IMG/VR virus record: IMGVR_UViG_3300021962_000830
Coordinates: 1 to 20,293 of that record
Source of the DNA: a virus
Reading direction: 5' to 3' (one strand)
Length of the DNA stretch: 20,293 bases
The notes beneath the pieces are model-generated. The model was given only the letters and a program-made list of their open reading frames with translations. It was not told the DNA's origin and did no database searches. Shown here piece after piece: positions 3,011 to 16,686 of the stretch. The number at the start of each line of letters is the position of its first letter. Within the stretch, counting starts at the first letter, position 1. The position numbers and the translations under genes were made by a program.

Positions 3011-4276
3011 ATGGCTGAAAATAAACCAAAGCTCCTGTGGGTGGGTGACATCGTTGCCACTACGGGTTTTGCGCGTGTCACTGAAAACGTATTGAGCCGT
3101 CTAAAAGATAAATATGAAATTCATGTGCTGGGGTGCAACTGGCATGGTGATTACACACCTCTTCAGCAGGAATACTTCATGTACCCTGCCTCCAACATGT
3201 ACCAGAATCAGCCCTTTGGAGAGGCTCGGATTCGTGAAATCACGGAAAGAATTCGCCCCGATGTAATTTTTACAATCAACGATTGTTGGATCATCAATAA
3301 TCAATGGACTCAAATCCGGGATCTACGCAATGAAATCGGATTTAAATTTGTTGGCTACTACCCCATGGATTCCTATGGGTGGTACGGCTGTTTGGGTGAC
3401 ACCATGAACGAATGGGATGCAGCAGTTTGCTACACCAAATTTGGTGCGCAAGAAACTATTTCCGCTGGTGTGAACAAACCAATTTGGGTTGTTCCTCATG
3501 GCGTTACCCCTGGTCAGTTCTATCCAAAAGATCGGGACACCTGCCGTAAGCAGCTTGGATTGGATCCGGATGACTTTATTGTTTTCAACGGTAACCGCAA
3601 CCAATTCCGAAAGCGTATCGACATCACAATCTCGGCATTTGCAAAATTTGCCGTAGGTAAACCAGATGCCAAGCTTTATTTGCACATGGGCCAGAAGGAC
3701 CAGGGCTGGGACATCATGCCGTTGTTCCATCGGGAAATGGCGCGTCAGGGCTTAGATCCCAACAATCGGATCATCATGACGACACCTACTTCTCATGGTC
3801 CATCCGTTGATGTGGAACTTCTTAATACCATCTACAACTGTGCCGATGTGGGTGTTAACACCTGTAAGGGTGAAGGTTGGGGTCTTGTGAACTTTGAACA
3901 CGCTGCCTGCCGTGTTGCTCAGATTGTACCGGACCACACCTCATGTAAAGAAATTTTTGAAGACGCTGGTCTTTTGATTCGCAATCTACATGCAGATGTA
4001 GATACAAACTTTGGTCGAATCATGCCCTGCCCAGACGACAATCATTTGGCTGAGCTGCTGACTGAACTTTACGAAGATCCTAAAAAGCTTGATCGAGTAG
4101 CGCAGGCTTGCTACGAGCGCGTCACTGATCCTTGCTTTAACTGGAATACGGTTGCATCTGATTTTGACGAGGTGTTCCAGGAAGTCTTGGCTAAGAAAGA
4201 GGAACCGCAGATCAAGGTCAGCAAGCGGAAGGGTAAGAAGGACAAGAAGAAGGAACTGGCTGAGGCAAAGGCATGA
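3011..4276 (+). CDS. GT4-type (GT-B fold) glycosyltransferase
   Basis: A 421-residue group-1 glycosyltransferase that would transfer a sugar from a nucleotide-sugar donor to an unknown acceptor. The N-terminal Rossmann half starts LLWVGDIVATTGFARV. The C-terminal donor half has FNGNRNQFRKR (about 194-204), typical of the phosphate-binding loop after the interdomain linker. It also has GEGWGLVNFE, in which E288 and E296 form the E-x7-E motif of GT4 enzymes. The last 25 residues are very Lys-rich (KRKGKKDKKKELAEAKA) and probably disordered. The ATG lies 33 nt after the speD stop; no convincing Shine-Dalgarno sequence precedes it. The end overlaps the cupin gene by 4 nt (ATGA). Sugar and acceptor cannot be read from the sequence. 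Confidence 0.85.
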   Translation: MAENKPKLLWVGDIVATTGFARVTENVLSRLKDKYEIHVLGCNWHGDYTPLQQEYFMYPASNMYQNQPFGEARIREITERIRPDVIFTINDCWIINNQWTQIRDLRNEIGFKFVGYYPMDSYGWYGCLGDTMNEWDAAVCYTKFGAQETISAGVNKPIWVVPHGVTPGQFYPKDRDTCRKQLGLDPDDFIVFNGNRNQFRKRIDITISAFAKFAVGKPDAKLYLHMGQKDQGWDIMPLFHREMARQGLDPNNRIIMTTPTSHGPSVDVELLNTIYNCADVGVNTCKGEGWGLVNFEHAACRVAQIVPDHTSCKEIFEDAGLLIRNLHADVDTNFGRIMPCPDDNHLAELLTELYEDPKKLDRVAQACYERVTDPCFNWNTVASDFDEVFQEVLAKKEEPQIKVSKRKGKKDKKKELAEAKA

Positions 4277-7282: not shown

Positions 7283-8299
7283 TCAGTAATCCCATCGAAT
7301 TCGTTGCCGTCCTTCTCTAATTCCAAGGTGAACAAAACCTTTCAGCGCCCCATATCCTAGGGAGTAAGGCCAATTCTTGTTACACCAATCTTGAACAACG
7401 TAAATATTTGCCCCTTCAATGTAAAAATCAATGGCTCCTTTTGAGGGCGCATTGTAAGTGTGTTCACTATTCTTAGATCCACCTACTTGTGTGTTAATAG
7501 GTTCAGGTCGAGAAGCACTAGTAATGATCAAAGGTTTATTACCAAACGCTACTCTAACTTTTTCAAGAAACTCACATAACTCCAGGGCGGTATCACATTG
7601 GTACTGCTTGCTAAAGCGCCGTGCTTCTTGATTGAGAGTTAATTCTCCATACGTGATATTCGGTGTGACTTTATAGGTGAAAGGGCTCCAGGGGTTAAAG
7701 CGATCTTTTTTAGTTTCTTCTAATTTTTTCTCAATGTTACCGGGAGCGCCTATCTCCCTGTCCATGATCTGAATTAACTTAGTACTGTAATCAGGATCCG
7801 TTGCATATTTTTCAACGACTAATAATTGAGCACACTCATTACGTGTCTTGGCACGATTAACTCCTTTAAAACGACCAAAATCTTTATACCACCGATCAAC
7901 TAAATAAAAAACACACGTTTCTAAATCGGGAAAATCAATAAAACTGTCGGTAATTGTAATCCACTTTCCGTTAATAAATTCTTGTGTGCTAACTGCACTC
8001 CCTGATCCTTTTAATCCAAAAAAATTATTCTTTCCAGATGTATGTTTGCCCCAGCCTGATTCGAGTGCCCATTGTGCAGCGACACATTCAGGCCATTTGC
8101 TACCTGCTGTTTTAGCTGCGGCAAGAACACCGTCCCAAGTGTTACCAACTTCAACAACAGGCTTGGGTAATGTACGGTATTTAGATGCAAACGTCTCCAG
8201 GACATTAGGAGATATCTGAGTCTGGAGCCAGTCCCATGCATCGATTTGATGCTTCTCTCCTTTGTAAAACTTTGCTGCTTCTTTAAGTAAAATTGACAT
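7283..8299 (-). CDS. Bifunctional endolysin: glucosaminidase-like domain plus M15 peptidase domain
   Basis: A 338-residue peptidoglycan hydrolase with two catalytic modules, expected to act on the host wall at lysis. The N-terminal module (about 55-185) resembles FlgJ/LytG-type N-acetylglucosaminidase (GH73): AAQWALESGWGKH with probable catalytic E80, then NNFFGLKG and an ordered run of helices through VEKYATDPDYSTKL. The C-terminal module (about 215-338) resembles M15 D-Ala-D-Ala carboxypeptidases/endopeptidases: SASRPEPIN, GGSKNSEH, GAIDF and GFVHLGIR, with likely zinc ligands H280, D291 and H324. The H280-D291 spacing is longer than the common H-x6-D, due to a four-residue insert. No signal peptide is visible, so export would need a holin. 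The following 53-aa gene is nearly contiguous. Confidence 0.87.
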   Translation of the reverse strand: MSILLKEAAKFYKGEKHQIDAWDWLQTQISPNVLETFASKYRTLPKPVVEVGNTWDGVLAAAKTAGSKWPECVAAQWALESGWGKHTSGKNNFFGLKGSGSAVSTQEFINGKWITITDSFIDFPDLETCVFYLVDRWYKDFGRFKGVNRAKTRNECAQLLVVEKYATDPDYSTKLIQIMDREIGAPGNIEKKLEETKKDRFNPWSPFTYKVTPNITYGELTLNQEARRFSKQYQCDTALELCEFLEKVRVAFGNKPLIITSASRPEPINTQVGGSKNSEHTYNAPSKGAIDFYIEGANIYVVQDWCNKNWPYSLGYGALKGFVHLGIREGRQRIRWDY

Positions 8300-8336
8300 A
8301 TTAATCTTTAGTTTTTTTTACTCTAGGTCAAGTCAA

Positions 8337-8996
8337 TTAACTAACAATTTCAATTGGTGTACATCTACCAGGTTTTTCGCGATACCATTTTGTGATGATA
8401 TATTTACTTCCTTTTAATACTGGAAGTGCTTCATGCATTACATCAATGTTTGGAGTTCCGTCAATATAAAGATTATTCCAGGCAAGAGCCATTCCTTGTA
8501 CTGGTGTAAAACAGCGACCAATTAATGGGAAATCTGTTTGTCCTCCTTCTTCTACAGCATTAAGATAAACCATGACCGTCCATGTTCTCTGCCCACCAAT
8601 ACTACAGTTTTCCAAGTATTCATCTCCTTCTGGATCAAACCAATCATTATGTTCTTTAAAGTATTGGCCTGGGTCATAACGTTGACCTTGGATAGGTTCT
8701 GAATATTCTGGATCAACGCCAAGTACATCAGAAAAATAAATATCTAGATCTTCTACCAATTGAGCATTCACGTCAAACAGATGACAAGTTCTACTTGTTC
8801 TGTAATTGTTGTTTCCAAATGTTACTTCAGAAGGAACAAGCATTTTGTCAATATTTTTAATGACAAATTCACAATAATCTTTTGTTAAAAATCCGGGGAT
8901 CTCATAAAACTGAGCCAATGGGGTATCCAACTTCCAGGCTCTGGGATGCCTTGAAGAATCTGTTATGCCAAGGTGGTACCAATCGTTGTAGTCCAA
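8337..8996 (-). CDS. 2-oxoglutarate/Fe(II)-dependent oxygenase, prolyl 4-hydroxylase type
   Basis: A 219-residue dioxygenase that would hydroxylate a substrate using O2, 2-oxoglutarate and Fe(II). The iron triad is visible: H116 and D118 in KEHNDWF, and the distal H188 in VMHEALPV. K198 in KGSKYIITKWYRE is at the usual 2-oxoglutarate-binding position ten residues on. GGQRTWTVMVYLN and GGQTDFPLI are typical of the P4H-alpha/procollagen-lysyl group, which acts on protein side chains; free amino acids or other substrates are possible. The start must be TTG (8996-8994): there is no ATG before the domain, and the upstream stop is 9 nt away with TTAGG in between. Related oxygenases are common in cyanophages. 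Clustering with glycosyltransferases hints at hydroxylation before glycosylation. Confidence 0.87.
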   Translation of the reverse strand: MDYNDWYHLGITDSSRHPRAWKLDTPLAQFYEIPGFLTKDYCEFVIKNIDKMLVPSEVTFGNNNYRTSRTCHLFDVNAQLVEDLDIYFSDVLGVDPEYSEPIQGQRYDPGQYFKEHNDWFDPEGDEYLENCSIGGQRTWTVMVYLNAVEEGGQTDFPLIGRCFTPVQGMALAWNNLYIDGTPNIDVMHEALPVLKGSKYIITKWYREKPGRCTPIEIVS

Positions 8997-9005
8997 GTTT
9001 TAAAC

Positions 9006-9701
9006 CTAAGGATTAACGTTTAACAGTTGTTTAAAATTACCTGTATATATTTTGGGGCCAACATGCATGCACGTAGATGTGGTATTAATCCAAATATCGT
9101 GCCCCAAATGTTTAATTTTTTGGCATAAATAAATATCTTCTCCAATAAAACCTTCTGCAACAAAATCATATTGACAGATGTTGTTTAGTTCTTTGCCACG
9201 GAATACAGTCTTAGTGCTATTTGCCGCAAGGTCTTTCAATACTTTCTTGCTTAACTTTAAACAACTGGTGCTTACACCATCTGCCTTGAGCCAATCACCT
9301 TCCATCTTGGGTTCTTCTTTAAAAAAGATATCGTAACTTTCTTGATCTGATTTCTTGACGGTTGGGATAGCAACAACGTCTTTTTCACTTTTTACGACAG
9401 TAATAAACGCCTGTGGATCGCAATAAACATCTGAGTCGATGAAGACAAGCGAATCAAAATCCCCCTGGATCGCAACAGTTAAGATTTCGTTACGTGCCAT
9501 GGGGAGGATGCTCTCATATGAGAGAAGTACCATATTCACTTCAATGTCGTTGAGGAGAGCGAGCTTACCGATCTCATGAAGTGCGTAGGAGTACCAGGCA
9601 TCGACCCTCCCATCGAGTGCCGGTGTACCGACTAGTACGCGTTGCTTCCTGTTCTGATTTTGTTTAGCAGGTTTTGCCACTGGATAAACCTTTTTTCCCA
9701 T
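9006..9701 (-). CDS. GT-A type (GT2-like) glycosyltransferase
   Basis: A 231-residue protein with a GT-A nucleotide-sugar transferase pattern. Numbering from ATG 9701, RVLVGTPALDGRVD begins the core, and VFIDSDVY supplies a D-x-D metal-binding motif (D89/D91). VSTSCLKLS and GEDIYLCQKIKHLGHDIW (E188, D189) match the acceptor/catalytic region of GT2-like enzymes. A His follows in CMHVG. A TTG two codons upstream is the alternative start. The first 70 nt overlap the end of the upstream GT4 gene in another frame, with no later start that would keep the first strand. It belongs to a run of sugar- and methyl-transfer genes and is followed at 9 nt by the 2OG oxygenase. Donor and acceptor are unknown. 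Confidence 0.82.
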   Translation of the reverse strand: MGKKVYPVAKPAKQNQNRKQRVLVGTPALDGRVDAWYSYALHEIGKLALLNDIEVNMVLLSYESILPMARNEILTVAIQGDFDSLVFIDSDVYCDPQAFITVVKSEKDVVAIPTVKKSDQESYDIFFKEEPKMEGDWLKADGVSTSCLKLSKKVLKDLAANSTKTVFRGKELNNICQYDFVAEGFIGEDIYLCQKIKHLGHDIWINTTSTCMHVGPKIYTGNFKQLLNVNP

Positions 9702-10564
9702 GTCCAATTTTTGTTGTAAAACTCAATTTGCTCAAGAAGACGTTCCTGGTTTTGCTTAGACCAGTAGTTGTCAATTACTCTGTTTAAGACAATAGCGTAA
9801 TTTTGAGCAAGTCGGTCATGATCGTTGTCGTAACAAACAAATTCTCCGTATTCACCACAGGTTTCAAAGAGTGCTCCATAGTTGGTAACGACTGCTTGAC
9901 ACCCAGCGCACATCGCTTCAATTGCTGAGATGCAAGAAGTTTCTTCAAAGGTACTGGGGTAAGCAAAGATATGCGCGTCTTCCAGGGCGGTGCGGATCTC
10001 TTGATTGGGTGCGTAACCTTTGACGTTGATGCCGGAAGTTTTTTCTAGTTCTTCAAAAAGCTGATCAAAGCGTCCTGTCACGGATTGAGCAAAAGCTGGT
10101 CCGTAGATGACAGTAGAAGAGTAAACGTCAAGTTCAATGTCATCTCGATTAAGGAGGCGGAATGCTTTCAAAAGAACATGCAGTCCGCGCCAAGGGGTTG
10201 ATGTGTAGATCAACTTGAGCTTGCCTTTGGGTTTTGGCTTGATATCAAATGCTGTTGTCGCGTTCTTAATAACGACTGATTTCCAAGGCGGTGCATTAAA
10301 TTTTTCTCTGAATTTTTCGTAGCACCAGTGGGAGTCGTAAACAAAACAATCAACGGTATCCACAAAAGAAGGGCTGCGCATTCCTTGAACATTTTCTTGG
10401 TCGTAACTCAGTTCTTGCAGAAGAATGTTCTTTTTACCAGGCACAATAAGTTCTGGCTTGCAGATAGAAACAATTAAGTTGATTCCTGTAAAATCTAAAT
10501 TTTCTTTTAGTGTATCGACCAGGATTTCAGTCCCGCCTTTTGGCTGTGTTGGGATCACGTTCAA
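9632..10564 (-). CDS. GT4-type glycosyltransferase
   Basis: About 310 residues, GT-B fold. The N-terminus reads NVIPTQPKGGTEILVDTL with the GGTE acceptor-domain motif. The donor domain has LIYTSTPWRGLHVLLKAF and FEETSCISAIEAMCAG, where the second and third Glu form E-x7-E. The start is hard to fix. TTG at 10564 gives M-N-V-I-P and GTG at 10558 gives M-I-P; ATG at 10603 or 10612 would deepen the overlap with the FkbM gene. I chose TTG because it keeps the strand before GGTE with a short overlap (38 nt). The 3' end overlaps the GT-A gene by 70 nt. It is a second GT4 enzyme, visibly different from the one at 3011-4276. The acceptor may be a virion protein or surface glycan (inferred). Confidence 0.82.
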   Translation of the reverse strand: MNVIPTQPKGGTEILVDTLKENLDFTGINLIVSICKPELIVPGKKNILLQELSYDQENVQGMRSPSFVDTVDCFVYDSHWCYEKFREKFNAPPWKSVVIKNATTAFDIKPKPKGKLKLIYTSTPWRGLHVLLKAFRLLNRDDIELDVYSSTVIYGPAFAQSVTGRFDQLFEELEKTSGINVKGYAPNQEIRTALEDAHIFAYPSTFEETSCISAIEAMCAGCQAVVTNYGALFETCGEYGEFVCYDNDHDRLAQNYAIVLNRVIDNYWSKQNQERLLEQIEFYNKNWTWEKRFIQWQNLLNKIRTGSNAY

Positions 10565-11153
10565 ACAGGAAATCAACCTGGAGTAACTGATTATTCTGAT
10601 CATACAGGACATCAAAGATATCCATGAGCCTGTATCCAATTTTATTTAGATAAGAGATCACCTCACCGGCCAAGGGTGCGCCTTGGTTGTACTGCTGAAT
10701 TGAAGTTTCAATTAACAAATAAGTAGGCTGTGTTTTTGTCAGGTATTTCTTCCCGCCTTTCAAAATATCAAGCTCTGAACCCTGCACATCTAACTTAATA
10801 AAATCAAATGCAGGGAAATTTAAATCGTCCAGTGCATACGCCCACTTCTTAAGAACCAAGGGATCTTGGTAATAGACGGTGTTTTCGCGGTAGACAGAAC
10901 TGCCGGTTGTGCAAGCATCCTCTGACAATGTATAAAAATCTATTTGCTTGGTCTTTTTACTGAGTAAATAAAAGTCGGTATCAAAATCTAGAAGGAAAGG
11001 CGCTTGACGCTCGTCTCCTTCAATGCATTTAATCTTTGAGCCTGGGAATAGCTCTTTGATTAGACGCGCAAATTCACCACGATAAGCTCCAACATCTAAA
11101 ACGCTTTTAATGGGCTGCTTTAAATGTTGAAGCCTATGTCGAAATCTCTGCAC
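10527..11153 (-). CDS. FkbM-family SAM-dependent methyltransferase
   Basis: A 208-residue class I methyltransferase. VLDVGAYRGEFA (18-29) is the SAM-binding motif I, and IKCIEGDER contains the acidic residue E45 that binds the ribose. FDFIKLDVQGSELDILKGG (about 115-133) is the signature of the FkbM group, whose members often O-methylate sugars or antibiotics. The C-terminal strand QVDFLFERD is also typical, so the reading frame is real to its end despite the overlap with the next gene. The start is GTG (11153-11151), 10 nt after the upstream stop. Placed before two glycosyltransferases, it may cap or modify a glycan by methylation; that is inference from position. Confidence 0.87.
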   Translation of the reverse strand: MQRFRHRLQHLKQPIKSVLDVGAYRGEFARLIKELFPGSKIKCIEGDERQAPFLLDFDTDFYLLSKKTKQIDFYTLSEDACTTGSSVYRENTVYYQDPLVLKKWAYALDDLNFPAFDFIKLDVQGSELDILKGGKKYLTKTQPTYLLIETSIQQYNQGAPLAGEVISYLNKIGYRLMDIFDVLYDQNNQLLQVDFLFERDPNTAKRRD

Positions 11154-11163
11154 AGATCTTGTA

Positions 11164-11475
11164 TCAGCTCAGAGAAGTGATATCAAAATCGTTCAGTTTT
11201 TCTTCGGTTGGGGTTCCGGTCATGCTTCCGTAAAAGCTGTCAAACACCATGTCCAGATGCACGGTGTTGCAAAAACCTAGCAGTTCAGACTTGGTGAAAT
11301 CAGAAGGTTCTTTGTTGAGATACTCAACGTCTGCTCCACAACTAAAATCTTTGATCAGACCATTGCAGCTATAAACAACGGTAAGATCCCATTGCTTAAC
11401 TTTACCGTTGGTTTTAACAGTAGGGATGGCCTTGGAAAGGGCTTTGGTGGCACCAATAGCGTTAATAAAAGCCAT
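11164..11475 (-). CDS. Hypothetical protein, 103 aa, in the fibre cluster
   Basis: I do not recognise a named family. The protein opens MAFINAIGATKALSKAIPTV, contains VKQWDLTVVYSCNG and VEYLNKEPSDFTKSELLGF, and ends DFDITSLS. The pattern suggests a compact beta-strand domain with one helix and no signal or membrane segment. It lies between the S74 fibre and the FkbM gene on the same strand, with 61 nt on one side and 10 nt on the other. A small virion or fibre-assembly protein is possible. No Shine-Dalgarno sequence precedes the ATG; the leader ends in TTTAAATA. Confidence 0.72.
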   Translation of the reverse strand: MAFINAIGATKALSKAIPTVKTNGKVKQWDLTVVYSCNGLIKDFSCGADVEYLNKEPSDFTKSELLGFCNTVHLDMVFDSFYGSMTGTPTEEKLNDFDITSLS

Positions 11476-11536
11476 TATTTAAACAGGTGTTTTTTAAATC
11501 ATAGCAGCAGTTTAAACCTAGTCCAAATCAAATTGC

Positions 11537-14428
11537 TTAAGTCACAATGTGATTGAGAAACGCTTCTTCCAGATTTTCCAGGCGTGTGGAAAGTTCTTGT
11601 ACAGCTTTTACCAAAATTGGATAGGTCTTCATTGTATCAGCTTCCCACATTAAAGGATTGTCTTTATGGACAAGACGTGTGTATTGCTGTGTACCAAACT
11701 GCTGTTCAACTTGATCCAGCTCTTGGGCAATAAACCCAAAATCTTTACGACCTTTTCGAGAGCCATCACGTGTTGCCCAATCAAATTTTACAGGACGCAA
11801 CGCTTTAATAAACGTTACGCCAAATGGCAGATCTTCAATATTGGTTTTGTCTCTTATGTCTGAAAGGGTTGAAATTGTTGTATCAGCACAACGTAAGTTA
11901 ACAACGTTGGCGTCACCAAGTGTAAATTCACCAGTAACTGTTGCAGCAGAAGCCTGAGCCTGGTTACCAATACATGTGTTGTTAACACCTGTGGTAATTG
12001 TGCTCCCTGCGTTATCACCAATTGCAACATTTTGATTTCCTATTGTATTGATGCGTAAAGCGCCAGAACCTATTGCTATATTGGAAGCACCTGAGGTATT
12101 AAAAAATAAAGCGTTTGGACCTATGCCAATGTTATTACTGCCTGTCGTATTAGAGTATAAACAACTACCGCCAATGGCAATATTATAGCTGCCAGTTGTA
12201 TTCGAGAATAGAGCCTGATAACCAACTGCAGTACTCTCAATACCTGTTGTATTAGTGCGCAGGGCTTGATAGCCGACCCCAACCATATTGCCAGATTTGT
12301 TATTTTCCAACGCAAAGGAACCAACTGCAGTACTAGCTGTTCCTGTTACATTTAAACGAAGAGCGCTCCCTCCAATGGCGGTATTGTAATTACCTGTTGT
12401 ACTAGTCTGAAGAGTACTATTTCCAATGCCAACATTGGTTGTGCCAAATGTATTACCAATTACTGCAAAAGAGCCAATACCAATATTATTGGTACCTGAT
12501 GTATTACCGTTTAAAGCAAGGTAACCAACAGCTGTATTATTGGTGCCTGTTGAGTTAACGGATAAAGCACTGTTTCCAATTGCAACATTAAAACTTCCTG
12601 TTGTATTATTAACCAACGAAGTAACTCCAACGGCGGTATTGTTTGTACCAGTTGAGTTGGTAAACATGGATGATCTGCCGATAGCAGTATTATCAGCGCC
12701 TGTTGTATTTGTTTGCAACGCACCGTAACCAACCGCGGTCATTCTGCTGCCCGCCGTATTATAAAATAAAGCGTTAGCACCAATAGCTGTATTTTCAGTA
12801 CCTGTTATGTCAGTGGTTAATGCAGAAGATCCAACGGCGGTATTGTAATTACCTGTTACGTGAGCCTTACCTGCTTGATAACCAAAAGCAGCATTAGCAA
12901 AAGCAGTTGTGTTAGCGTTTAAGGCTTCATATCCAACCGCGGTATTACCACCAGCTGTACTATTGGAGCGCAGCGCATTAAAACCAACCGCTACGTTAGC
13001 AGTTGCTGTATTAAGACGTAATGCATTTGCGCCAACAGCAACGTTAGCAAATCCAATTAAATTTGTATATAAACCACTGAGACCAATAGCAATATTTTGA
13101 CCGCCTGATGTATTACTGTATAGAGCCTGATAACCAATCGCAACATTCTCAGCGCCTGTTGTATTAAACGTTAATGCAACAGAACCTACTGCAACGTTTC
13201 GATTGCCTGATGTATTACTATCTAAAGACTGATAGCCAACTGCAGTATTATCGCTACCAGTTGTGCTTAATAAACCTGCCTGATAACCAATAAATGTATT
13301 ATTAACGCCGGTATTAACATTGCCAGCTTGATAACCTAAAGCAGTTTCAAAAGGACTTGCAGAATCAGTAATGCCGGATAAGCTGGATCCTGCTGTTACC
13401 GCTGCCCATGTGGTGGTTCCATTTCCATTTGTTTGTAAATAAAATCCTGATGTTCCAGTTATTGTAGGAAAACTGTATAGACCATATGGTCGAATATCAC
13501 CACTACCACTGATAACGATTACATCACCGGAAGCTCTGTAAATACTGCCAGAAATCTGATTCGTAAAAACACCGGTTGCAAAATTGGCAGTAGTTCCAGT
13601 TACCGTTACACCTGTAATAGATGTAAAACTACCGGCATTCCCTGTAATGGTTGCACCAGACAGCTGACTTGTAAATACACCATTTACACCATTGAGATTG
13701 GTGGCAAAAACCGTTGTGCCAGTGATGCTTGCACCAGATAACAGGTTAGTAAAGACACCATCTACGCCATTTAGGGTAGTGGCAGAAACCGTGGTGCCAG
13801 TAATTGTTGCACCGGACAATTGAGTTGTGAATACACCACTTACGCCATTAAGAGTGGTAGCAGAAACTGTGGTACCAGTTATCGTTGCACCAGATAACTG
13901 GTCACTGAAGACACCACTTACACCGTTAAGGGTGGTAGCAGAAACCGTAGAACCGGTAATTGTTGCACCAGATAATTGGGTGCTGAATACACCACTTACG
14001 CCATTAAGAGTGGTAGCAGAAACTGTGGTACCAGTTATCGTTGCACCAGATAACTGGGTGCTGAATACACCACTTACACCGTTGAGAGTAGTGGCAGAGA
14101 CCGTTGTACCAGTGACGGTTGCACCGGATAACTGGGTGCTAAAGACACCGCTTACGCCAGTAATGCTTGTTGCAGCAACCGTAGAACCGGTAATTGTTGT
14201 TCCAGATAATTGCGTTGTAAATACACCTGTTACGCCTGTAATACTGGTGGCAGAAACGGCGACACCCGTAATAACGTTTCCAGATATTTGTGTAGTAAAA
14301 ACGCCACTCGTTCCTAAAACGTTTGCGCCGCTAACACTATTAATAAATACACCAGTTTGTCCCGTAATGGTGTTCAGGGAAAAAATATTTCCACTGCTGG
14401 AATCGTAAGAGCTATATTTGATGGCCAT
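11537..14428 (-). CDS. Tail fibre with repeat arrays and C-terminal S74 intramolecular chaperone
   Basis: A 963-residue fibre expected to trimerise and bind the host surface. Residues about 35-290 hold nine 26-residue repeats of the type GVFSTQLSGATITG followed by TTVSATTLNGVS. A 48-residue module with SGSGDIRPYG follows. Next come about 28 repeats of 17 residues (NTAVGYQAL then SNTTGS-like), resembling the beta-roll head repeats of trimeric adhesins. The last 108 residues are a Peptidase_S74 chaperone: S856-D857 marks the self-cleavage site, K861 is the partner of the Ser-Lys dyad, and LRPVKFDW and KDFGFIAQELD are family motifs. Cleavage would release the C-terminal coiled coil after trimer folding. 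The N-terminus lacks the attachment-like domain seen in the upstream fibre. The ATG overlaps that gene's stop (TGATG), so translation is coupled. Confidence 0.9.
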   Translation of the reverse strand: MAIKYSSYDSSSGNIFSLNTITGQTGVFINSVSGANVLGTSGVFTTQISGNVITGVAVSATSITGVTGVFTTQLSGTTITGSTVAATSITGVSGVFSTQLSGATVTGTTVSATTLNGVSGVFSTQLSGATITGTTVSATTLNGVSGVFSTQLSGATITGSTVSATTLNGVSGVFSDQLSGATITGTTVSATTLNGVSGVFTTQLSGATITGTTVSATTLNGVDGVFTNLLSGASITGTTVFATNLNGVNGVFTSQLSGATITGNAGSFTSITGVTVTGTTANFATGVFTNQISGSIYRASGDVIVISGSGDIRPYGLYSFPTITGTSGFYLQTNGNGTTTWAAVTAGSSLSGITDSASPFETALGYQAGNVNTGVNNTFIGYQAGLLSTTGSDNTAVGYQSLDSNTSGNRNVAVGSVALTFNTTGAENVAIGYQALYSNTSGGQNIAIGLSGLYTNLIGFANVAVGANALRLNTATANVAVGFNALRSNSTAGGNTAVGYEALNANTTAFANAAFGYQAGKAHVTGNYNTAVGSSALTTDITGTENTAIGANALFYNTAGSRMTAVGYGALQTNTTGADNTAIGRSSMFTNSTGTNNTAVGVTSLVNNTTGSFNVAIGNSALSVNSTGTNNTAVGYLALNGNTSGTNNIGIGSFAVIGNTFGTTNVGIGNSTLQTSTTGNYNTAIGGSALRLNVTGTASTAVGSFALENNKSGNMVGVGYQALRTNTTGIESTAVGYQALFSNTTGSYNIAIGGSCLYSNTTGSNNIGIGPNALFFNTSGASNIAIGSGALRINTIGNQNVAIGDNAGSTITTGVNNTCIGNQAQASAATVTGEFTLGDANVVNLRCADTTISTLSDIRDKTNIEDLPFGVTFIKALRPVKFDWATRDGSRKGRKDFGFIAQELDQVEQQFGTQQYTRLVHKDNPLMWEADTMKTYPILVKAVQELSTRLENLEEAFLNHIVT
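11931..13351 (-). repeat. Tandem 51-bp coding repeat, about 28 copies
   Basis: Encodes 17-residue units with the core N-x-A-[VI]-G-x-x-A-L-x-x-N-T-[TS]-G. I count 28 units by eye, two of them 16 residues long. Units differ in DNA sequence, so this is an old, protein-level array rather than recent DNA amplification. It forms the shaft of the S74 fibre. Confidence 0.88.
13550..14330 (-). repeat. Tandem 78-bp coding repeat, nine to ten copies
   Basis: Encodes 26-residue GVF..QLSGATITG repeats. DNA similarity is high in the middle of the array: positions 13828-13901 and 13984-14057 are identical over 74 nt, two periods (156 nt) apart. The unit between them differs. This points to recent duplication or gene conversion within the fibre. 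Confidence 0.88.
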
Positions 14429-16686
14429 CAGTCAATTACCCAACCTTGTGAAAGATTTGCATAGATCAACCTAAAACGAGCGTTTAAATCGTCAATCTGC
14501 AAATCATCTGCTACACCCATTATATTATTCCCATTTCGCAAAAGAAGCCCAGTAGTTGTATTACTTCTGTTGATAACTCCCACATAACTACCCGTGGCGG
14601 GTGCTGCGGGTAGTGTAATCGATGCTCCACTGATTAAAACATAATATGTATTAGAAACACCGGTAATATTTTCCGTAATTACACTAATGTTTTCTGCAGC
14701 TGAAGGGATTTGGATTTCAACCCAGCTCGTTGTTCCATTTGCATTAGTAGATAAAACATAACCGGAAACGCCTGTTCCTACTGGAAAACTGTATGCGCCA
14801 TAAGGCCGGATGTCGCCAGAACCACTGATAATTACAATGCCGCCACTCGCGTAATATGTATTTCCAGAAATTAACCCAGTTGTAAAGATACCGCTTGCAA
14901 ATGCTCCACTTCCAGAAACAAAAAGATTTCCACTGGTGAGCAAACCGGAACCAAAAATTCCGCTACCACTTACAGTAAGATTTCCAGTTGTTGACGCTGT
15001 AAAGTTTACATTTCCAGCGTTAAGTGTTCCAAAAGTACCTACGGTTGCATTAATAGAATTTCCGGTAATGGCATTGCCCGAGATGTTTGAAAATGTTCCT
15101 GAAATTCCGGAAATGACTGTAAATAAACCAGTGACACCAGTTACTAGTGGCGAGTAGATTCTATTTGCGAAAGTTCCACTAACTCCTGTCAGATGTGTAA
15201 ATAGTCCTGTAGAACCTGTAATGGTGGCACCTGACAAATCAGTAAAAACACCAGATCGAAATGTTCCGGATGTACCCGAAATCGTGCCGCCTGTAATTGT
15301 ATTCCCGCTGATGGAATTAAACGTTCCTGTTACAGCGGTAAATGAAGTTGCTTGAATTGTATTTCCTGTAATTAAAACACCGGATATTAAACCGGTTGCA
15401 TTAAGGGAGGAACCTGTGGCCGTATCAAAAATAAACGTTTGACCTGTAACCGTATTCCCTGAAATTGTTCCGGAAACAACGAGGCCTGAGCTGATAATTC
15501 CGCTTCCCAATACAATTAAATTACCATCAGCGGATAGGTTACCCGTAGTGGAAATCGAAGGAATTGAAATGGTATTCGTAAAAATACCTGTTGTAGCCGT
15601 AATTGTTGTAAATTGACCACTTGTCCCGGTGATAGTGGCTCCGCTGATATTGGCTGTACTTGTAAGGCTACTAACAGTTACTGTGTTAAAAAGACCTGTT
15701 ACGCCGGTAATAACAGCCCCGGATAATCGATCCGTAAAAACACCGGTAACTCCTGTAAGATGCGGAAATATCCCTGTTGCACCACTGATAAAAGAAAAAG
15801 TTGCAGTATTTCCAGAAACACTTTGTCCTGTAATATTTGTGAATGCACCTGTTGTTCCTGTGATCGTTGTTCCAGATGCAATGGTGAATAAACCGGTTAC
15901 TGCGTTTAGGTTTGTAAATTGTCCCGTTACACCCGTAACTATTGCGCCAGAAACACGTGAAGTGAAAACACCTGTTACGCCTGTAATCTGATCAAAGAGT
16001 CCTATATTTCCTGTAATAACAGCACCGGACAAACGGCTTGTAAAAACACCGGAAATGCCAGTAATGTTTGCAAAAGCGCCTGTATTTCCTGTAACAGTTG
16101 CACCGGATAAATAAGAAGTAAAAACACCAGTGACACCAGTGATGCTGGTTCCATTAATGTTTATTCCAGTAATATTGTCCCCTCTAATAAGTTGACCTGT
16201 AATACCACTTGCGGCAATTGCATTTCCAGTGATTGTCGCACCGCTAAACGTTGTTGCTGTAACAGTGCTAAAACCTGCACTTGTTGATTGTAATGAAATG
16301 AAGTAACCACTAACACCATTAATATTGGTACCAAGAATGCTGGCACCTGTAATTGTTGTACCGCTAATGCTGCCGGTACTACTAAAATTATTGATAACAA
16401 CGTTATTAAGATTTACTGTTCCCGTTCCAGCGCTTGTTATATTGCCTTGAACAGTTAAGCTACCTGAAACATTCAGGTTATTCTCAATGCTTAAATTGTT
16501 GCTGAGAGCGCCGCCAGTTAACTGAAGATAATATTTGTTTAAGTAAGCCTTATGTTCTTGGAATGTAAATTTCTTATTTTTTAATCCTGGGTCAACTTCT
16601 GAAACGTGGACAACAGTAAACAGATCGGCATCTTGAATGTCGAAAGAGGTAATCGAAGGCAGATCCGTAATGCGCCTGTTGGCCAC
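14428..16686 (-). CDS. Tail fibre / baseplate-attached fibre protein with beta repeats
   Basis: A 752-residue structural protein. The N-terminus RRITDLPSITSFDIQDADLF, ending with a KKFTFQEHK stretch, resembles the attachment domain of phage fibres. Residues about 60-640 are Gly/Ser/Thr/Ile-rich beta repeats built on a 26-residue unit (GVFTSRLSGAVITG-like). This is the same family as in the downstream fibre, but more diverged. A SGSGDIRPYG module follows (about 608-655), then a different C-terminal domain that ends RFRLIYANLSQGWVID, a pattern common at fibre C-termini. There is no S74 domain. The start is GTG (16686-16684), with GAGAG about 8 nt upstream. A late-promoter-like AATAAATA sits 49 nt upstream. 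TGATG couples it to the S74 fibre. Confidence 0.86.
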   Translation of the reverse strand: MANRRITDLPSITSFDIQDADLFTVVHVSEVDPGLKNKKFTFQEHKAYLNKYYLQLTGGALSNNLSIENNLNVSGSLTVQGNITSAGTGTVNLNNVVINNFSSTGSISGTTITGASILGTNINGVSGYFISLQSTSAGFSTVTATTFSGATITGNAIAASGITGQLIRGDNITGININGTSITGVTGVFTSYLSGATVTGNTGAFANITGISGVFTSRLSGAVITGNIGLFDQITGVTGVFTSRVSGAIVTGVTGQFTNLNAVTGLFTIASGTTITGTTGAFTNITGQSVSGNTATFSFISGATGIFPHLTGVTGVFTDRLSGAVITGVTGLFNTVTVSSLTSTANISGATITGTSGQFTTITATTGIFTNTISIPSISTTGNLSADGNLIVLGSGIISSGLVVSGTISGNTVTGQTFIFDTATGSSLNATGLISGVLITGNTIQATSFTAVTGTFNSISGNTITGGTISGTSGTFRSGVFTDLSGATITGSTGLFTHLTGVSGTFANRIYSPLVTGVTGLFTVISGISGTFSNISGNAITGNSINATVGTFGTLNAGNVNFTASTTGNLTVSGSGIFGSGLLTSGNLFVSGSGAFASGIFTTGLISGNTYYASGGIVIISGSGDIRPYGAYSFPVGTGVSGYVLSTNANGTTSWVEIQIPSAAENISVITENITGVSNTYYVLISGASITLPAAPATGSYVGVINRSNTTTGLLLRNGNNIMGVADDLQIDDLNARFRLIYANLSQGWVID
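14900..16280 (-). repeat. Diverged 78-bp-period coding repeats in the upstream fibre
   Basis: Repeated protein units of about 26 residues with cores such as GVFTSRLSGAVITGN, best preserved between about 15690 and 16140; other units are shortened or interrupted. The same core appears in the neighbouring fibre. Limits are approximate. Confidence 0.65.

Follow-up and report, generated by a model that had tools for sequence, protein, structure and literature searches.

The virus contig analysed here (IMG/VR record IMGVR_UViG_3300021962_000830), whose whole length of 20,293 bases is called the window below, carries two adjacent fibre genes, which contain copies of one module and then end in different ways. 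This raises the questions of how two neighbouring fibres came to share a module and whether the module is the place at which fibre tips are exchanged. A first-pass annotation had proposed that a duplication was followed by swapping of the tip, and that tips could be exchanged at the module.

The first fibre, U (14428..16686; this and the other features of the fibre locus are on the minus strand), is an ORF of 752 aa with a GTG start, the parts of which were set by comparison with about 80 relatives. It begins with a conserved anchor of about 59 residues (aa 1-59, beginning MANRRITDLPSI; 16510..16686). A search of IMG/VR with the anchor profile A4 matched 507 stretches, of which the best 80 were kept; the second fibre has no such anchor, so the attachment-like N-terminus is confined to the upstream protein, as had been annotated. 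The anchor is followed by a shaft of GVTGVFTxxLSGATITG repeats (14965..16509), in which autocorrelation was 1.9-fold at lags 26 and 10, that is, the 26-residue motif is present but irregular. Between the shaft and the module lies a collar in which SGSGxFxSGxxTSGxxS occurs twice (14866..14964), and the alignment of U proteins showed that the collar is common to those with and without the module. The module copy of U was delimited by sequence comparison (aa 608-655, 144 nt; 14722..14865), and the tip, which we call the R-tip, by comparison with relatives (about 97 residues, containing RNGNNIMG and ending RFRLIYANLSQGWVID; 14431..14721). The R-tip is also found in the IMG/VR loci L014, L090, L130 and L065, and a distant form of it in S-CAM1 and in PHROGs of unknown function; a Pfam search with the U tip gave no convincing match.

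The second fibre, D (11537..14428), is an ORF of 963 aa whose ATG start has one base in common with the TGA of U (TGATG, at 14428), and the same junction occurs in L009 and L014. One-base spacing of this type was seen in 22 anchor-gene loci, overlapping contigs counted, and most of the others have 26-49 nt between the genes. No slippery sequence for a frameshift fusion of U and D was seen by eye at the overlap. The D shaft (13644..14257) is a clean tandem array of 26-residue (78-nt) repeats (78 nt x 7.9 by TRF; autocorrelation 5.1-fold at lag 26). The earlier description of 26-residue repeats ahead of both modules thus holds for D, but in U the repeats are irregular and the module is directly preceded by the collar rather than by a 26-mer. 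After the D module (aa 294-341, 144 nt; 13406..13549; sequence comparison) come 17-residue repeats, GYQALxxNTTGxxNTAV (11909..13363; autocorrelation and PHROGs matches), and a Peptidase_S74 chaperone domain (aa 856-909; 11702..11863; Pfam PF13884, E 2.7e-11, 44 bits against a Pfam cut-off of 22), which identifies D as an S74 fibre. D contains the stretch SDIRDK, and self-cleavage and trimeric maturation by S74 are predicted. The repeat number of D varies: the protein has 963 aa in the window and 1072 aa in L009 (4721-7939), a relative of about 95% nt identity, in which there are fewer 26-mers and more 17-mers. Between window 11537-14428 and L009, the repeat count has thus shifted over a short time scale.

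The two modules align without gaps with 32 of 48 residues and 90 of 144 nt identical. Their Smith-Waterman score of 183 compares with 28.5 +/- 5.7 for shuffled sequences (maximum 55), and the similarity ends within a few residues past the final W. The positions, lengths and approximate identity given in the first-pass annotation were therefore confirmed, as were the different ends, namely the 17-residue repeats plus S74 in D and the tip of about 97 residues in U.

To place the window, its core genes were compared with those of known phages. A comparison of the primase with its counterpart in Synechococcus phage S-EIV1 (KJ410740.1) gave 65% identity across 98% of the protein, and the core genes of S-EIV1 are in the same order as in the window, with primase, S-adenosylmethionine decarboxylase (speD) and a glycosyltransferase on one side of a two-gene fibre locus and dCTP deaminase on the other. 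On the basis of these homologous genes in the same order, the window is evidently from an S-EIV1-like Synechococcus phage. Its hosts would be freshwater cyanobacteria, judging from the kinship of the contig with S-EIV1, which the title of Chenard et al. (2015, cited in PMC9382816) presents as a widespread freshwater cyanophage lineage. No close isolates other than S-EIV1 were found in the collection searched. The S-EIV1 fibre gene AHV82255 and the next CDS, at 768-2573, are the counterpart of the window pair: the anchor (VSNRRISEF) and the kind of shaft are the same and the second gene has an S74-like end, whereas the first-fibre tip is another one (SGVVSGGTSGFVIQGPLIILP) and the second gene starts differently (MAYGTVKVDNIT). 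The module is absent from both S-EIV1 fibre genes.

A search of IMG/VR with U, the 103-aa gene next to D, the anchor and the module gave more than 150 loci, many of them overlapping. In about 80 related contigs the position of the locus is constant and its content variable, with one N-terminal anchor and many tips. The window, L009 and L014 have U with the R-tip and a second gene starting MAIKYS. In L010-L012 and L022/L023 there is a single fused fibre, which has the anchor of the first fibre and an S74 end. L026 and L031, with partial copies in L024-L030, have a different first-fibre tip followed by a propeller-like repeat protein; this second gene (L026 6967-8574, L031 7905-9515; starting MSLLASYLL, about 535 aa, with beta-propeller-like repeats) shares one base with the first fibre gene and represents a second fibre of another kind in the same position. 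In L013, a 100-aa gene (3349-3651) consists of the anchor and a short end, NTWKRTGLSSW, with almost no fibre, and the next gene encodes a 1429-aa S74 fibre that starts MAYGTLKVD and is without the module. L144 and L141 carry several short fibre genes per contig, more than one of them with its own module copy, which suggests arrays of alternative fibres.

Shaft repeats are prone to misassembly, and D differs in repeat number between the window and L009, so one might ask whether faulty assembly of repetitive fibre genes has produced the two-gene and fused states. We regard this as extremely improbable: several independent contigs, and the isolate S-EIV1, have the two-gene state; the fused state was found in three contigs that are nearly identical and come from different data sets and, as a second genotype, twice more; and between L015 and the window the agreement is 99.5% along 19 kb, with no gap.

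The relation of the tips to the history of the phages was followed on a tree of six upstream flank genes from 84 contigs. The results showed that the tip class has changed at least 19 times on this flank tree, and that the rows of the window type (R-tip plus a MAIKYS second gene) fall in three places on it, a single clade being rejected (p-AU 3e-32). In colinear blastn chains, the left flank and the U shaft of the window match L056, L053, L052 and L044 at 71-74% nt, and these matches stop 10-53 nt short of the U module. Beginning with the collar, the window matches L021 and L130 at 71-72% nt (blastn), and the match to L056/L053 returns, at 76-78%, inside the endolysin gene (7283-8299), about 6.7 kb further on. 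Relative to L056/L053, the exchanged tip-side cassette (8143..14919, minus strand; colinear blastn chains) comprises the U module and tip, D, the 103-aa gene, an FkbM methyltransferase, two glycosyltransferases and a 2OG oxygenase.

In 9 of 12 trios, MaxChi placed the switch in U at aa ~590-600 (14887..14919, minus strand), which is 8-18 residues ahead of the module; for the other three (L021 with L056, L044 or L052/L053) the break lies at aa 555-575, 35-55 residues earlier, the exact breakpoints being fuzzy because the shafts are repetitive. The MaxChi values were 67-118, against at most 24 in shuffles, none of 500 reaching the observed value; the break was found again with L004 as query, and trios of phages that share a tip, used as controls, gave 3.9-11.6. 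Hence one shaft carries different tips with a breakpoint that can be located, and the U module with all that lies beyond it has, as these comparisons clearly indicate, been swapped in from another lineage. With the left crossover before the U module, the module, tip, second fibre and downstream genes would have entered together, as about 6.7 kb. Since the parents are about 70% alike in nt, the exchange is an old one, which may be blurred by changes made since. The breakpoint mapping and the metagenomic search for swapped tips that the first-pass annotation had suggested were thus both fruitful, the latter including the fused fibres.

Several genes travel with the tip. At window 8337-11475, the 103-aa gene (11164..11475, minus strand), which adjoins the S74 tip in relatives, the FkbM methyltransferase and the two glycosyltransferases go together with the S74 tip; the 2OG oxygenase gene is an addition seen in the window. 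These companion genes are shared with L010, L013, L014/L021 and L022 as a block of 72-74% nt. Since sugar-modifying genes travel with a Ser/Thr-rich fibre, the fibre may be glycosylated. No neighbouring invertase or reverse transcriptase was found among the proteins scanned in this 20-kb fragment.

A duplication of one fibre gene in this phage, after which both copies kept the module and the tips were swapped, would agree with the adjacency of the genes, their similar shafts and the 32 of 48 identical module residues. Codons differ, however, at 20 of these 32 residues, and the longest identical DNA is 12 nt within the modules and 20 nt within the genes. Each window module has nearer relatives in other phages (L090 and L130 for U, L014 and L010 for D), the two ranking only 8th or 13th for each other. 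In the module tree, whose 46 columns are too few for firm groups, second-fibre modules of different phages group together (support 91/76), and a sister pair of the two window modules is not formally rejected (p-AU 0.14) because so few columns carry little signal. Moreover, the second fibre arrived as part of the cassette. We therefore consider such a duplication quite unlikely. Judged from their sequences, the modules are an old, saturated pair with nearest kin in other phages, and the 12-nt limit makes present-day recombination between them in one genome unlikely. What stands of the original proposal is that tips and second fibres have been exchanged and that swapped variants exist; a recent duplication is not supported.

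In the fused fibres L010-L012 and L022/L023, the first-fibre shaft is followed by the module and then by the S74 tip of the second fibre. The switch was located within the module, at nt 11-60 of 138 in most trios, and the break scores beat all shuffles in nearly all of them. On the flank tree, a grouping of L010 with L022 in a single clade is not rejected (p 0.226). The breaks in the fused fibres, the window break just before the module and several other pairs breaking 6-30 residues before it are what one would expect if the module DNA were a dedicated exchange point, a recombination hot spot for tip swapping. Yet in a set of 17 pairs that are phylogenetically independent and differ in their downstream parts, only 4 breaks fell near the module (-35 to +46 residues of its start), where 2.65 are expected if breaks are uniform (P=0.27); the remaining breaks were mapped immediately behind the anchor, to the middle of the shaft or to places far upstream. 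Tip swapping is also seen in fibres that lack the module (L148/L161, L099/L103), and the module is conserved as protein, not as DNA. A hot spot is thus unlikely, and the idea that the module is a special point of tip exchange was not borne out, since breaks occur all along the fibre gene and are not concentrated at this conserved motif. The module appears to be the joint only sometimes; in the window, the joint would be the collar, and the module travelled with the tip side.

A further question is whether the module has any meaning of its own. In 33 module proteins, near-identical copies removed, mean pairwise identity is 0.43-0.78 in the module and falls to about 0.15 to its left and right. 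After the module comes the R-tip in 11, a Y-tip in 8, a short end in 6, 17-residue repeats plus S74 in 4, more shaft in 3 and another end in 1. The module is present in first and in second fibres, and in some relatives it sits in mid shaft rather than before the tip. At its place, L056, L044 and L052 have an alternative adaptor (WLDADxSNWVAFxAP and on to VTWVLPSGDATTSGYALISDASGNLTW), which in L053 lies further on, and L087, L078 and L074 have no adaptor there in the U alignment. The alternative adaptor resembles the linker ahead of the repeats in L026/L031.

If the module were a ubiquitous filler of unrelated fibres, its sharing would be meaningless. Its C-terminal half, GTSGYxLSTNGDGTTSW, does resemble short stretches in unrelated phage proteins (T2S2 ORF46, S-CRES1 gp86, S-B05) and recurs in the alternative adaptor of L056/L044. 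Against this, a search of 50,697 phage records with the full module gave a single match, of 46%, with a profile fit limited to the C-terminal half, and 42 of 47 strong module loci in IMG/VR show the S-EIV1-like anchor and flank genes, the remaining five being contig pieces without visible flanks. These two counts argue for a lineage-specific adaptor and make a general filler very unlikely: wherever flanks are visible, the full module is confined to the lineage. We concluded that the module is probably a family-specific adaptor between shaft and tip, with a C-terminal half of a commoner type.

We propose that U and D make up the fibre locus with which an S-EIV1-like cyanophage recognises its host. 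U would be anchored through its conserved N-terminus and carry the repetitive shaft, and D would be a second fibre, translated in overlap with U and matured by its S74 chaperone. The module would join a shaft of the GVTGVFTxxLSGATITG type to one of several interchangeable ends (R-tip, Y-tip, 17-residue repeats with S74, a short stub or more shaft). Related phages would exchange tip-side cassettes by recombination, the crossovers at one end falling in the repetitive shaft and collar and those at the other end in conserved core genes. The ancestor of the window would have had its left crossover in the collar just before the U module; in the fused relatives a switch inside the module would have brought the S74 tip onto the first fibre. 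The fibres would be trimeric, the tips would bind receptors, the module would act as a structural adaptor, and co-infection would supply the partners. The account as a whole, a host-recognition locus with an adaptor module and recombinational exchange of tip-side cassettes, is in our judgement highly probable.

AlphaFold modelling of the U collar, module and tip (six sequences) reached pLDDT 32, which gives the adaptor and trimer reading no support. The anchor model (54 sequences) reached pLDDT 60, with no Foldseek match in the PDB at E<=0.001 (best E 5.8); a sequence search of the PDB gave no match for the anchor and only chance-level matches for module plus tip.

A wider reading, held tentatively and thought doubtful, is that in S-EIV1-like phages the module is the standard coupling piece of both fibres, with tips moving from second to first fibre and back. 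If so, single recombination events would convert two-fibre virions to one-fibre virions (L010, L022) and back, and host recognition would be rebuilt by shifting finished tips between two sockets of one virion. In the S-EIV1-like fibre locus, nature has made dozens of tip swaps on one shared backbone, and flank trees put them in order, so that it can be asked where crossovers fall, which genes travel with the tip and how a second-fibre tip becomes part of the first. The module also supplies testable adaptor boundaries for fibre biochemistry.

Modular fibre exchange is already known. In T-even phages, conserved stretches are the sites at which fibre tips are exchanged (Tetart et al. 1998, cited in PMC10408124). 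As far as that citation describes it, the exchange resembles the present one in that tips vary, shaft and attachment stay, and conserved protein motifs lie at the joint; it differs in that the breakpoints here are not enriched at the module and whole neighbouring genes are swapped too. In tailspikes of E. coli phages, conserved DNA motifs lie before and after the receptor-binding domain (PMC10408124). The conserved anchor, exchanged C-terminal domain, conserved joint and exchange between lineages are alike, but those motifs are conserved DNA across genera, whereas the module is conserved at the protein level in one lineage. Domain mosaicism is general in receptor-binding proteins (PMC10684548), and whole host-recognition modules move between Alteromonas phages (PMC10579305); interchangeable fibre domains and mobile recognition modules are common to these cases and ours, which concerns another phage group and in which the same tip is on the first or the second fibre depending on the phage. 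The locus described here is thus a natural, well-resolved new example of a known principle. What sets it apart is a putative protein-level adaptor common to two fibres of one virus, and a tip that apparently belongs to the first fibre in some phages and to the second in others.
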